From positions 1 to 55,140 of IMG/VR virus record IMGVR_UViG_3300009488_000001: DNA of 55,140 nt; one strand, written 5' to 3'. The position numbers and the translations under genes were made by a program. Positions 4,182 through 46,792 of the stretch are shown here, piece by piece. Within the stretch, counting starts at the first letter, position 1; each line of letters starts with the position of its first letter. Below the pieces are notes generated by a model that worked only from the letters and a program-made list of their open reading frames with translations, did no database searches and was not told the origin of the DNA. The DNA comes from a virus.

Positions 4182-4490
4182 ATGAAAACTTCGACTTTCG
4201 AAAACAGAACAAAAGACATTAACAAATCAACAGTAGGGTATCAATTAGCCAAAACATTACTTTCTGGTGGCTCATATTTAAAAGGTAAGCCAATGGTAAG
4301 ACCTTGTTATACTTCTGGTCGTGGACGTTTCACGTCAAACCAAAATCATACGGTTGATACGATAATGTGTCTACAAATAGCTGGGCTAAAAAGAGATATT
4401 GATTTTAAATTAACAAACGATGCACCGAGAGGCAGCGCAACGGGCAACCTAATCACTTTAATCAATCGCAATAAAATGATAAAAAATTAA
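4182..4490 (+). CDS. Protein of unknown function
   Basis: A 102-residue protein with central basic and Gly/Ser stretches (KGKPMVRPCYTSGRGRF) and no membrane segment. No family recognised. It is the first gene after its own promoter and is followed by a 180-base structured gap, so it may be regulated apart from its neighbours. Confidence 0.75.
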   Translation: MKTSTFENRTKDINKSTVGYQLAKTLLSGGSYLKGKPMVRPCYTSGRGRFTSNQNHTVDTIMCLQIAGLKRDIDFKLTNDAPRGSATGNLITLINRNKMIKN

Positions 4491-4500
4491 TCCTCCGAGT

Positions 4501-4563
4501 TCCTGCAAAGTCTCGCAGGATTTGCCGACCCGATACCTGCCAGAGGATCGGGTTTTGGTGGTA
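4501..4563 (+). ncRNA. Two-hairpin RNA element A with TTTTGGTGGTA tail
   Basis: Hairpin 1 TCCTGC/GCAGGA (4501-4520), hairpin 2 CCCGAT/ATCGGG (4529-4552), then TTTTGGTGGTA (4553-4563). It could act as a terminator for the gene at 4182, but the GGTGGTA tail recurs after hairpins at three other loci, two of them lacking a clean U-tract. That suggests a conserved cis element. Confidence 0.55.
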
Positions 4564-9755: not shown

Positions 9756-10448
9756 ATGGAAAAAGGTTTTATAACAAATCAAACCTTATTTGGGAAGCCT
9801 GAAATAATAGGTTTTGGATCGTCAGATTTTTATGTACAAGAGGTAGGTCGCAATTTTGCGAATGAAACTATTGTAAAGAATCATTATAGTAATAAAGTGT
9901 ATAATGGCACGTATATACATTTGGGCATTTATATTAAATCTGAATTGTTAGGAATATTACAATATGGATATGCTATGAATCCGTCGAGTTGTGACAGTGT
10001 AGTAAAGGGGACGGAGCAGGATCAATATCTTGAATTAAATAGAATGTGGCTTGATGATAAGGCAGCGCGCAATAGTGAAAGTAAGGCAATAAGTTATTCA
10101 ATTAAATATATAAAGGGTAAATTGCCACGAATAAAATGGATACAGTCATTTGCAGATGAAAGGTGTGGTTTTTTTGGAATTGTTTACCAAGCCTGCAGTT
10201 TTAATTTTTATGGTGAACATGAATCTGTGTTTTGGGAGCTTGAGGGTGAAATTTTCCATAATTCAATAAAAACTAGCAGAAAGGCGGGTAAAAGAGGATA
10301 TGATTTATTAAACAATCCCATAAATAAAGATAAAATTAAAAGTGAGAAACTCCGCCAATTTAGATATATTAAATTTATTGATTCCCGATGGAAAAAGAAA
10401 TGTTTATTAAAAGAAAAACCATATTTAAAATATTATAATGGTGATTAA
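9756..10448 (+). CDS. Mom-like DNA adenine modification protein (GNAT fold)
   Basis: A 230-residue protein resembling phage Mu Mom. N-H-Y-S near residue 42 and H-L-G-I-Y near residue 55 are followed by G-I-L-Q-Y-G, A-M-N-P, L-E-L-N-R-M-W-L-D-D near residue 93, R-N-S-E-S-K-A-I-S, then W-I-Q-S-F-A-D-E-R-C-G with V-Y-Q-A-C-S-F. This is the Mom/GNAT core. Mom converts adenine to a methylcarbamoyl form and so protects phage DNA from restriction. The adjacent Dam- and Dcm-like genes support a DNA-modification island. Mu mom is toxic and tightly controlled; element D in the leader could serve that purpose. Confidence 0.8.
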   Translation: MEKGFITNQTLFGKPEIIGFGSSDFYVQEVGRNFANETIVKNHYSNKVYNGTYIHLGIYIKSELLGILQYGYAMNPSSCDSVVKGTEQDQYLELNRMWLDDKAARNSESKAISYSIKYIKGKLPRIKWIQSFADERCGFFGIVYQACSFNFYGEHESVFWELEGEIFHNSIKTSRKAGKRGYDLLNNPINKDKIKSEKLRQFRYIKFIDSRWKKKCLLKEKPYLKYYNGD

Positions 10449-10487
10449 TGCATAACTCAAACCACGGTCTACCATTAAAAACATAAG

Positions 10488-11087
10488 ATGAAAAACAGAA
10501 ATATAAAACATTCAGATCATTGGCTAACTCCCAGGATATTTTTCGACAAGTTAAATGAAAAATACAATTTCAATCTCGATCCATGTCCTGCTTATCATGA
10601 TATTAGAGAATGGGACGGATTAAAAATTGACTGGGATAGCCGTAATTTTATCAATCCTCCATATTCACAGAAATCAAAAGAGGCATTTGTAATTAAAGCC
10701 ATACACGAAAGTAAAAAAGGTAAATTATGTGTGATGCTTTTACCTGTAAGCACTTCGACTAAATTGTTTCATGAAATCATCCTGCCAGAGAAGCCAAAAG
10801 TAAAATTCATAAAAGGCAGATTGCCATTTATCGGACAAAATGAAAAGGGGCAAATTGTTAATAGCGAAAAGCCAACACAGGAATTAATAGAATGGACGGA
10901 TGAAGAGGGAGAAATTACGCTGATTTCCAAACATGTTAAGAACTCGGGACAACACGATTCTATGCTAGTTGTGTTCGATGGTCGCAGCGCCTCAGATAAG
11001 GCAAAATTTCTTATAGATAGATTTATAAAAAGAGATGTAAGGGGCTGGATTGTGGCTATTCAAAATAAGCAGGGTAAATTATTTTAA
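10488..11087 (+). CDS. dam: Phage N6-adenine DNA methyltransferase (Dam family)
   Basis: A 199-residue protein. It has W-L-T-P-R near residue 12, F-N-L-D-P-C near residue 29 and F-I-N-P-P-Y at residues 54-59; N-P-P-Y is the catalytic motif IV of amino-methyltransferases. V-M-L-L-P and the C-terminal V-V-F strand fit the phage Dam family (usual length 150-200). It would methylate adenine in phage DNA, probably against restriction or to compete with the Mom-like enzyme for sites. Confidence 0.85.
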   Translation: MKNRNIKHSDHWLTPRIFFDKLNEKYNFNLDPCPAYHDIREWDGLKIDWDSRNFINPPYSQKSKEAFVIKAIHESKKGKLCVMLLPVSTSTKLFHEIILPEKPKVKFIKGRLPFIGQNEKGQIVNSEKPTQELIEWTDEEGEITLISKHVKNSGQHDSMLVVFDGRSASDKAKFLIDRFIKRDVRGWIVAIQNKQGKLF

Positions 11088-45471: not shown

Positions 45472-45515
45472 GCAGGGAGGTACTTTCTTCGCTCCCTGCG
45501 TAGCTTTTAGGCTAC
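45472..45515. terminator. Double hairpin, possible terminator/processing site
   Basis: GCAGGGAG (45472-45479)/CTCCCTGC (45492-45499), then GTAGC (45500-45504)/GCTAC (45511-45515). On the minus strand the larger hairpin is followed by ATTTAATTTTA. It lies between the HNH gene and the 45456 gene; 45516-45625 holds no gene. Confidence 0.5.
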
Positions 45516-45625
45516 CATTTTTAAGTTGTTGTTTACTTTTACCTTAGCTCTCTATTATCCCAATTATCATCTGTCGATCCCAATTCAGCCCCATTTATTT
45601 GACTTGCAGGGACGGCGATCGTTAA

Positions 45626-46129
45626 TCACTCCGCCCCCACTAATGTTTTCAATATCCTTCCACATGATATATCCCTGACGTATTGGTATGGCACGTTAAG
45701 ATCTATTGACACCTGTTTTAATGTCCTCGATTCTCTATTAAATACAGCGGCTTTAACCTCAATTGCTTTGGTCTTGGGAATTTTGGTATTTAATGGGTAA
45801 TGATTTATTTCAAACCCCCTACCTTTAGGTATAATTAATCTGCCCTTATTAAAAGCATCCTTCATATTATCAGAATGACTTCCTATAAATAAATGATCTG
45901 GATTTACACATTTAGGATTATCACATTTGTGACAAACATATAATCCCTCTGGCATGTCTCCATTGTAAATCATCCAAGATAGTCGGTGAGCACCAAGTGA
46001 TTTACCTTCAACTTTAATTATACCATATCCCGTCCTGAGACCTGCTTGCCATTCCCAGCATCCTGTTTTTTGTTTTTTAATCTTAGAAAGGAATCTACCC
46101 TTAACTTTCTCGTCTATCATATAATTCAT
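45626..46129 (-). CDS. HNH homing endonuclease
   Basis: A 167-residue protein. C-W-E-W-Q-A near residue 18, G-A-H-R-L-S-W near residue 46, then C-H-K-C-D-N-P-K-C-V-N-P-D-H-L-F near residues 62-77: the zinc-bound HNH core of HNH_3 endonucleases. The C-terminal half has an HTH-like region (LKQVSIDLNVPYQYVRDI). Such genes are mobile and often insert beside tRNA-like sequence; here a tmRNA-like end lies 45 bases upstream. Confidence 0.85.
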   Translation of the reverse strand: MNYMIDEKVKGRFLSKIKKQKTGCWEWQAGLRTGYGIIKVEGKSLGAHRLSWMIYNGDMPEGLYVCHKCDNPKCVNPDHLFIGSHSDNMKDAFNKGRLIIPKGRGFEINHYPLNTKIPKTKAIEVKAAVFNRESRTLKQVSIDLNVPYQYVRDISCGRILKTLVGAE

Positions 46130-46173: not shown

Positions 46174-46205
46174 GGGAGCTAGCGGGAGTCGAACCCGCGT
46201 CCAAA
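46174..46205 (-). other. tmRNA-like 3' end fragment (possible att core)
   Basis: On the minus strand: TTTGGACGCGGGTTCGACTC and then CCGCTAGCTCC. That is a GGAC lead, a perfect T-arm GCGGG/CCCGC with loop TTCGACT, and a 3' acceptor strand, as in the 3' end of bacterial ssrA. No credible 5' acceptor partner with a tag frame is found nearby. Phages that integrate in ssrA carry such a segment in attP, but no integrase is visible here. Confidence 0.5.
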
Positions 46206-46239
46206 CAATATCGCAAATAATTTCAACGAACTAAAATAG

Positions 46240-46313
46240 AGCCTAATAAGGGATTCGAACCCCTGCCCCGATCATTACAAGTGAGCTGCTCTAACCAACT
46301 GAGCTAATCAGGC
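46240..46313 (-). tRNA. tRNA-Thr (TGT)
   Basis: 74 bases folding as a full cloverleaf: acceptor GCCTGAT/ATTAGGC (one G-U), D-arm GCTC/GAGC, anticodon arm GCTCA/TGATC with one mismatch and loop CTTGTAA (anticodon TGT), T-arm AGGGG/CCCTT with TTCGAAT, discriminator T. CCA is not encoded. It is likely transcribed from promoter P6. Confidence 0.9.
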
Positions 46314-46387
46314 TGTTTTGATTTATAAAGATAATCAATTAATACTAAATTATGAAATTGACAAAATCTGACCATCTGCCAGGATGG

Positions 46388-46434
46388 GATAAAATGCTGC
46401 TTTCTTTACGTGGCACAGCAACCTTTATTTTATC
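46388..46434 (-). ncRNA. Stem-loop in RNA cluster
   Basis: GATAAAAT/ATTTTATC (8 bp, perfect) encloses an internal loop and GCTG/CAGC. It lies between the tRNA-like RNA and tRNA-Thr on the same presumed transcript. The remaining bases of 46314-46611 hold no ORF. Confidence 0.4.
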
Positions 46435-46611
46435 TCTCCACCAAGCACGCCACTGGCAATGGCTAAAATAGATATTTGTAAAAATGCAAATCAAATGATA
46501 ATCATACGTACTCAAATCATTATTTTTACACCTTCCAAAAATAGGAGTAGCCTGTTTTATCGGTTCGCTCCGCTATTTTTGTTCAGTTTCGACCAGATTA
46601 TATTTAAAGAA

Positions 46612-46724
46612 TAGAGAGGGTAGGATTTGATACCTACAACAAGTTCCTGCGATCGTAGCCAACTTAGAGCCTAGCCTGCATTTAGGCAGCTTCCAACAGG
46701 TATGTGTATTTCCACCACCCCTCT
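46612..46724 (-). ncRNA. tRNA-like RNA, class II-sized but non-canonical
   Basis: 113 bases. The ends pair as a 7-bp acceptor, AGAGGGG with CCTCTCT (one G-U). A T-arm-like GTAGG/CCTAC has an 8-base loop TATCAAAT, one more than normal. Inside are a TGGTGG start like that of tRNA-Leu, a hairpin AGC-TGC/GCA-GCT with loop CTAAAT, and AAGTT/AACTT as a long variable-arm-like stem. It is too long, with unclear D and anticodon arms, for a normal tRNA-Leu. First element after promoter P6. Confidence 0.5.
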
Positions 46725-46749
46725 ATTCTATATTTTCAAAGAACTAATT

Positions 46750-46792
46750 CAAAGATAAGGACTAACAACACACAAAACAATGACTTTTGTCA
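46750..46792 (-). promoter_or_regulatory. Palindrome-type promoter P6 (leftward)
   Basis: On the minus strand TGACAAAAGTCA (46792-46781), a 23-base spacer, TATCTTTG (46757-46750), with TTGTTTTGTG after the palindrome as in P1. It drives the RNA cluster at 46174-46724 and perhaps the HNH gene. Confidence 0.75.

Follow-up and report, generated by a model that had tools for sequence, protein, structure and literature searches.

The window analysed here is the whole of a 55,140-base virus record, which carries a 123-base repeat at both ends and is therefore probably a complete genome; the repeat indicates that this genome is either free circular or terminally redundant. Its terminase shares 43% identity with those of Polaribacter phages and its promoters take the Bacteroidota form TTG...TAnnTTTG, which together make a Bacteroidota host likely (not proven). 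At 9756-11087, a Mom-like DNA modification gene adjoins a Dam-type methyltransferase gene.

A block of noncoding RNA elements, all on the minus strand, runs in the order promoter, boxA-like site 1, RNA-A, boxA-like site 2, RNA-B, tRNA-Thr and the acceptor half of a tmRNA (Table 1). An earlier sequence-only reading had correctly recognized a noncoding RNA block with a promoter leading into it, and the promoter proves to be of the Bacteroidota type; a second, similar copy is located at 1979-2029 on the plus strand. The elements listed in that reading all exist, including a stem-loop (here RNA-B) and a normal tRNA-Thr(TGT), but what it described as a tmRNA-like 3′ end is a cut-off part of a larger tmRNA.

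The RNA block is present in two other phages, L004 and L007. The protein encoded upstream of the block has 83% identity in L004, while L007 is a 77.8-kb phage otherwise largely unlike the window. Pattern scans of DNA for RNA-A, RNA-B and the linker TATAATCTGGTCGAAA returned only L004/L008 and L007 as true relatives, and the remaining matches were rejected as chance matches in coding sequence. When the L004 block was compared with 395 Bacteroidota genomes, only short fragments were returned, which we judged to be chance.

Table 1. Elements of the RNA block and the adjoining tmRNA gene in the window
Feature	Position	Strand	Basis or description
Promoter TTG-N20-TATCTTTG	46780-46750	-	Bacteroidota -33/-7 type
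boxA-like site 1, GTTCTTTGAAAATATA	46729-46744	-	Motif as in Bacteroidota 16S leaders
RNA-A (113-nt RNA of the sequence-only reading)	46727-46610	-	10-bp closing stem, T-arm-like hairpin, without tRNA fold
boxA-like site 2 (ATTCTTTAAATATA) and conserved ATCTGGTCGAAAC	46585-46612	-	Common to L004 and L007
RNA-B	46464-46367	-	Two conserved arms of ~29 nt around a variable middle
tRNA-Thr(TGT)	46313-46239	-	ARAGORN; Rfam 62.5 bits
tmRNA acceptor (3′) half	46238-46175	-	P2 3′ strand, T arm GCGGG-TTCGACT-CCCGC, acceptor strand TAGCTCC
HNH endonuclease gene (167 aa)	45626-46129	-	Pfam HNH_3, E 1.1e-12
tmRNA coding (5′) half	45592-45472	-	GGGGCTGAATTGGGATCGACAG, P2 5′ strand, tag, 3′ hairpins
Predicted tag frame	45507-45536	-	Sequence and alignment to Rfam permuted model

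A probable permuted tmRNA with an HNH gene between its halves

The coding half was located by seeking the partner of the acceptor strand TAGCTCC, which was found as GGGGCTGAATTGGGATCGACAG at 45592, behind the HNH gene and outside the region covered by the sequence-only reading, in which the tmRNA-like element had consisted of a 3′ end only. The acceptor half lies upstream of the coding half on the same strand, and the HNH gene sits inside the 582-nt spacer (46174-45593) between them. The two halves pair in a 7-bp acceptor stem (GGGGCTG/TAGCTCC) that includes G3-U70, and in a P2 helix of ~30 bp with an energy of -19.9 kcal/mol (shuffle mean -9.8). Only 1 of 2000 shuffles and 10 of 4410 genomic 36-mers pair as well, and the z score of -4.4 compares with -1.5 to -3.8 for eight phage or prophage permuted tmRNAs used as positive controls. 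Across nine phage and prophage tmRNAs, every cell (100%) of the acceptor and T arm is paired, G3-U70 is invariant and five pairs have changed on both sides, a covariation score reached by none of 500 shuffles.

The candidate tag frame, GTA AAC AAC AAC TTA AAA ATG GTA GCC TAA (VNNNLKMVA), lines up with the place where the tag begins in the Rfam permuted model, and its stop falls within the loop of the hairpin GUAGC-CUAAAA-GCUAC; tagging is a prediction. The one-piece tmRNA of phage contig L053, which scores 86.7 bits with Rfam tmRNA, begins with the same 21 nt as the coding half. This L053 tmRNA (856-1282) was missed by ARAGORN and has a long candidate tag reading frame.

The window tmRNA is unusually small and escapes the standard tools. 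ARAGORN made no tmRNA call, even with the halves joined; the Rfam permuted-tmRNA model, with a cut-off of 47, gave 24.8 and 14.9 bits, the acceptor half being a weak match. Such thresholds serve detection and do not define the class. A blastn search of phages with the 5′ half gave no match. The base after the acceptor stem, usually A, is C, CCA is not encoded and the pseudoknot PK1 is not visible. This combination might be read to mean that a tandem tmRNA-HNH-tmRNA duplication has decayed, leaving the two halves as remnants and no working tmRNA, the more so as another phage contig (L060, below) has an HNH gene behind a tmRNA. We regard such decay as unlikely, because the acceptor, T arm and long P2 are intact, the halves pair with each other better than those of known phage permuted tmRNAs, and a short in-frame tag with its stop in a hairpin loop has been kept, features that decay would break first. 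Capture of the 3′ end as an attachment site from host ssrA by an integrating phage, which we dropped once the 5′ half was found, is very improbable: ssrA 3′ ends often serve as attachment sites, but here the 3′ half is paired with a 5′ half that matches it and comes after it, in the permuted arrangement, no integrase was found among the part of the proteins scanned, and the end repeat speaks for a free circular or terminally redundant genome.

The sequence itself shows both halves, how they are ordered and paired, the HNH gene and the recurrence of the arrangement in other phages, and a permuted tmRNA is well supported by sequence and pairing, with a predicted function in ribosome rescue. In the close relative L004, the next gene comes directly after tRNA-Thr, without a tmRNA at the site. 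The tmRNA with its HNH gene is thus an extra unit in the window phage, and the tmRNA is dispensable.

Similar associations of tmRNA and endonuclease genes occur elsewhere. In L060, a homologue of the window HNH protein (54% identity) is encoded directly downstream of a one-piece phage tmRNA (L060:1574-2423), which has a long predicted tag of 33 aa. The permuted order was found in the crAss-like phages cr60_1, cr50_1, cr114_1, cr115_1, cr125_1, cr52_1 and cr53_1; cr60_1, cr50_1 and cr114_1 are annotated SsrA, while cr56_1 and cr113_1 are not annotated as tmRNA. In cr56_1, cr113_1 and MT835588 a 602-nt spacer carries an endonuclease gene, and in the closely related cr109_1 the spacer is 151 nt long without one. 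The permuted tmRNAs of L136 (541-1440; cr56_1), L138 and L147 have an altered 8-base T loop, TATCGTAT, as do those of L139/L141 (cr109_1), where the endonuclease gene is absent. Permuted tmRNAs are already known from crAss-like phages, three of them with an endonuclease gene in the spacer.

Group I introns with endonuclease genes were also observed in L140, L146 and L148 (cr6_1, cr4_1 and cr128_1; Rfam 97, 75 and 86 bits), sitting just before the apparent 3′ side of a tmRNA-like T arm and acceptor end. A coding half lies downstream in cr6_1 and cr4_1, giving a permuted tmRNA, and was not located in cr128_1; none of these loci is annotated as tmRNA. RAGATH-type motifs (RAGATH-7-associated at L140:589-710, RAGATH-20 at L136:216-313) are found just upstream of crAss-like tmRNA genes. 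The permuted tmRNA model, run over 247 Bacteroidota genomes, gave one match above the cut-off, in a phage-like region (L130:1410-2067, minus strand) that holds tRNA-Ile, tRNA-Met and a permuted tmRNA with the tag GKVIQMNNAPVRLAA; that genome also has its own normal one-piece tmRNA.

On the evidence of these cases, HNH-type endonucleases repeatedly target or inhabit phage tmRNA genes. The spacer arrangement is seen in two phage groups, each with its own endonuclease type, and in one case a close relative lacks the gene, which makes homing into tmRNA genes testable. In the searchable literature, which covered few subscription papers, we found no description of an endonuclease gene lying in the spacer of a permuted tmRNA. 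Since standard tools and GenBank annotations miss several such tmRNAs, phages with their own ribosome-rescue RNA are undercounted.

boxA-like sites, RNA-A and RNA-B

The boxA-like motif of the window is of the type found in rRNA leaders of the host group. A strict pattern, GTTC[N]TTGA[AC], matches 13 of 28 Bacteroidota 16S leaders; one leader carries GTTCATTGAAAATATTG, and several outside the strict pattern hold close variants such as GTTCTTTGATA. From the motif, NusB binding is predicted. In E. coli, boxA is both required and enough for the rRNA antitermination complex, and the sequences on either side of the rRNA close it by base pairing (PMC10250234). The first boxA-like site directly precedes RNA-A and the second lies 3′ of it. 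The phage block copies the order of an rRNA leader on a small scale, and may work in the same way.

Our readings of boxA, RNA-A and RNA-B are based on three phages. In each, a stem closes the RNA-A slot, which lies between GTTC[AT]TTGAAAATATA and [AG]TTCTTTAAA, with ATCTGGTCGAAA after the latter. The stem is AAUAGAGGGG/CCUCUCUAUU in the window, and GACAGAGAG/CUCUCUGUU and AACAGAGAGU/GCUCCCUGUU in the others, the last with one mismatch. The window stem spans 10 bp (46727-46718 with 46619-46610), bearing out the sequence-only claim that the ends of this RNA pair. Covariation in the stem is weak, with two pairs changed on both sides among four sequences and 57 of 500 shuffles as good. The stem type is the same in L004 and L007, but the interiors of their slots are unrelated to that of the window; the L004 interior recurs with 94% identity in L007, where it forms a stem-closed unit of its own farther downstream. 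RNA-B, whose middle varies in length, forms three helices that pair in all three phages, with one-sided changes only and no pair changed on both sides. RNA-B as a 5S rRNA or a ribozyme was rejected, Rfam giving no support, and cmscan at E up to 5 returned nothing here beyond a snoRNA match at chance level, located between the two RNAs.

The same motifs could serve another end, with RNA-A and RNA-B acting as decoys for host Nus factors or as copies of rRNA leaders that lower host rRNA synthesis or shield phage transcription. The boxA is of the kind found in host-group rRNA leaders, and it is directly followed by a closing stem, which resembles the boxC-trailer pairing of those leaders (PMC10250234). 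The boxA is equally accounted for if the phage simply antiterminates its own RNA operon, and we think a decoy role improbable.

A hairpin adjoining the closing stem (GUAGG-UAUCAAAU-CCUAC, loop of 8 nt) was rightly described in the sequence-only reading as T-arm-like, and it is the feature that would make RNA-A a degenerate class II tRNA (tRNA-Leu or tRNA-Ser) or a tRNA decoy. It equals a real tRNA-Ser T arm except for a 1-nt loop insertion and one substitution, a likeness equalled by 1 of 100 shuffles. Neither ARAGORN nor Rfam (E up to 5) calls a tRNA in RNA-A, cmscan at the same threshold gave no match to curated families (RAGATH and others), and the closing stem extends three pairs beyond a tRNA acceptor. 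The single-sequence folding of RNA-A is ordinary, not above chance (126-nt stretch, z -1.72; 11 of 200 shuffles match). In a blastn search of phage and plasmid records at E up to 10, no tRNA gene was matched and only short matches appeared; one of 21-22 nt, located upstream of tRNA-Thr in phi92-like phages, does not correspond to a tRNA T arm, and another, a weak one, is to a protein gene. The relatives carry unrelated sequence in the slot, keeping the closing stem and the flanking boxA and not the T-like hairpin or other tRNA features, so the tRNA likeness is not a conserved feature. We consider a class II tRNA or decoy distinctly unlikely.

The "tRNA-like RNA" of the sequence-only reading therefore holds for its pairing elements but not for a tRNA call or for a fold beyond chance. 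Of the identities it had offered, a degenerate tRNA-Leu fails on these searches, and a decoy for anticodon nucleases is unsupported, with no placeable anticodon loop and no such nuclease found among the part of the window proteins scanned; a novel RNA is the option that survives. As far as sequence comparison goes, what the phages conserve is the boxA-like motifs, the closing stem and RNA-B, and not a tRNA fold. RNA-A is probably no tRNA and instead a hairpin-closed RNA that follows an antitermination signal of the ribosomal type, and RNA-A and RNA-B look like members of a boxA-led stable-RNA operon. L007 also contains, at 4425-4530 on the minus strand, a tRNA-like RNA (GGGGAAG...CGAGG-TTCGAGT-CCTTG-CTTCTCCA) with G3-U70, which is without a D or anticodon arm and is not called by ARAGORN or Rfam.

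A model for the block and its relation to known systems

We consider it likely that the block is a single phage operon of stable RNAs, comprising the boxA-led RNA-A and RNA-B, tRNA-Thr and a permuted two-piece tmRNA, and we infer its transcription, processing, charging and tagging as follows. The host-type promoter would start the transcript at or just before the first boxA site, which would recruit the host NusB/S10 antitermination complex, as in rRNA operons, and several hundred untranslated nucleotides may thereby escape Rho. The closing stem of RNA-A can act like a small leader-trailer helix. RNA-A and RNA-B would be followed by tRNA-Thr and then by the permuted tmRNA, whose acceptor half starts right at the 3′ end of tRNA-Thr, so that 3′ processing of the tRNA could free its 5′ end. 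Removal of the spacer with the HNH gene would leave two RNAs that pair via the acceptor stem and P2 to form one tmRNA, which could accept alanine, given G3-U70, and would append the short tag VNNNLKMVA. Because the spacer is discarded from the product, a homing endonuclease gene may reside there without harm.

Placed between the two halves of a permuted tmRNA, such a gene would have a way to live within an essential-type RNA gene that needs no intron, and the boxA-led block suggests that some phages use the host ribosomal-RNA transcription machinery for small RNAs. A broader proposal, which we put forward only tentatively and hold to be somewhat doubtful, is that Bacteroidota phages carry a modular boxA-driven stable-RNA operon, in which RNA-B and the stem-closed RNA-A slots form a novel phage RNA class that makes use of or imitates rRNA antitermination and processing, and that the permuted-tmRNA spacer is a recurrent niche for homing endonucleases.

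Like boxA-led rRNA operons, the block has boxA at its start and again between its RNAs, and complementary sequences close the RNA that follows (PMC10250234). It differs in holding small RNAs rather than rRNA and in a closing stem of only ~10 bp, and its function is putative.

The tmRNA resembles the permuted tmRNAs of Alpha- and Betaproteobacteria, Cyanobacteria and marine phages (RF04321, tmRNA_permuted; PMC11915505, PMC9004378), of which two-piece forms have been described in marine phages (PMC9004378). In all of these the acceptor half comes first and the coding half second, the acceptor stem and P2 are paired, and the tag frame lies in the second piece. The window tmRNA is set apart by its probable Bacteroidota phage origin, its 582-nt spacer with an HNH gene, a very small coding piece without visible PK1, and scores below the Rfam and ARAGORN thresholds. 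The crAss-like permuted tmRNAs have the same order and pairing, and those of cr56_1, cr113_1 and MT835588 likewise have an endonuclease gene in the spacer. Their tags and flanks differ from those of the window, and, unlike the window, their spacer endonuclease is of another type and on the opposite strand and the T loop is altered (TATCGTAT).

LAGLIDADG genes have been reported in group I introns of one-piece tmRNA genes (PMC11915505). In both that system and the window, a mobile endonuclease gene occupies a place that the mature tmRNA excludes. In contrast to those genes, the window has no Intron_gpI match at the gathering threshold and an uninterrupted T loop, and its endonuclease gene is located between the two parts of a permuted gene, in the spacer.
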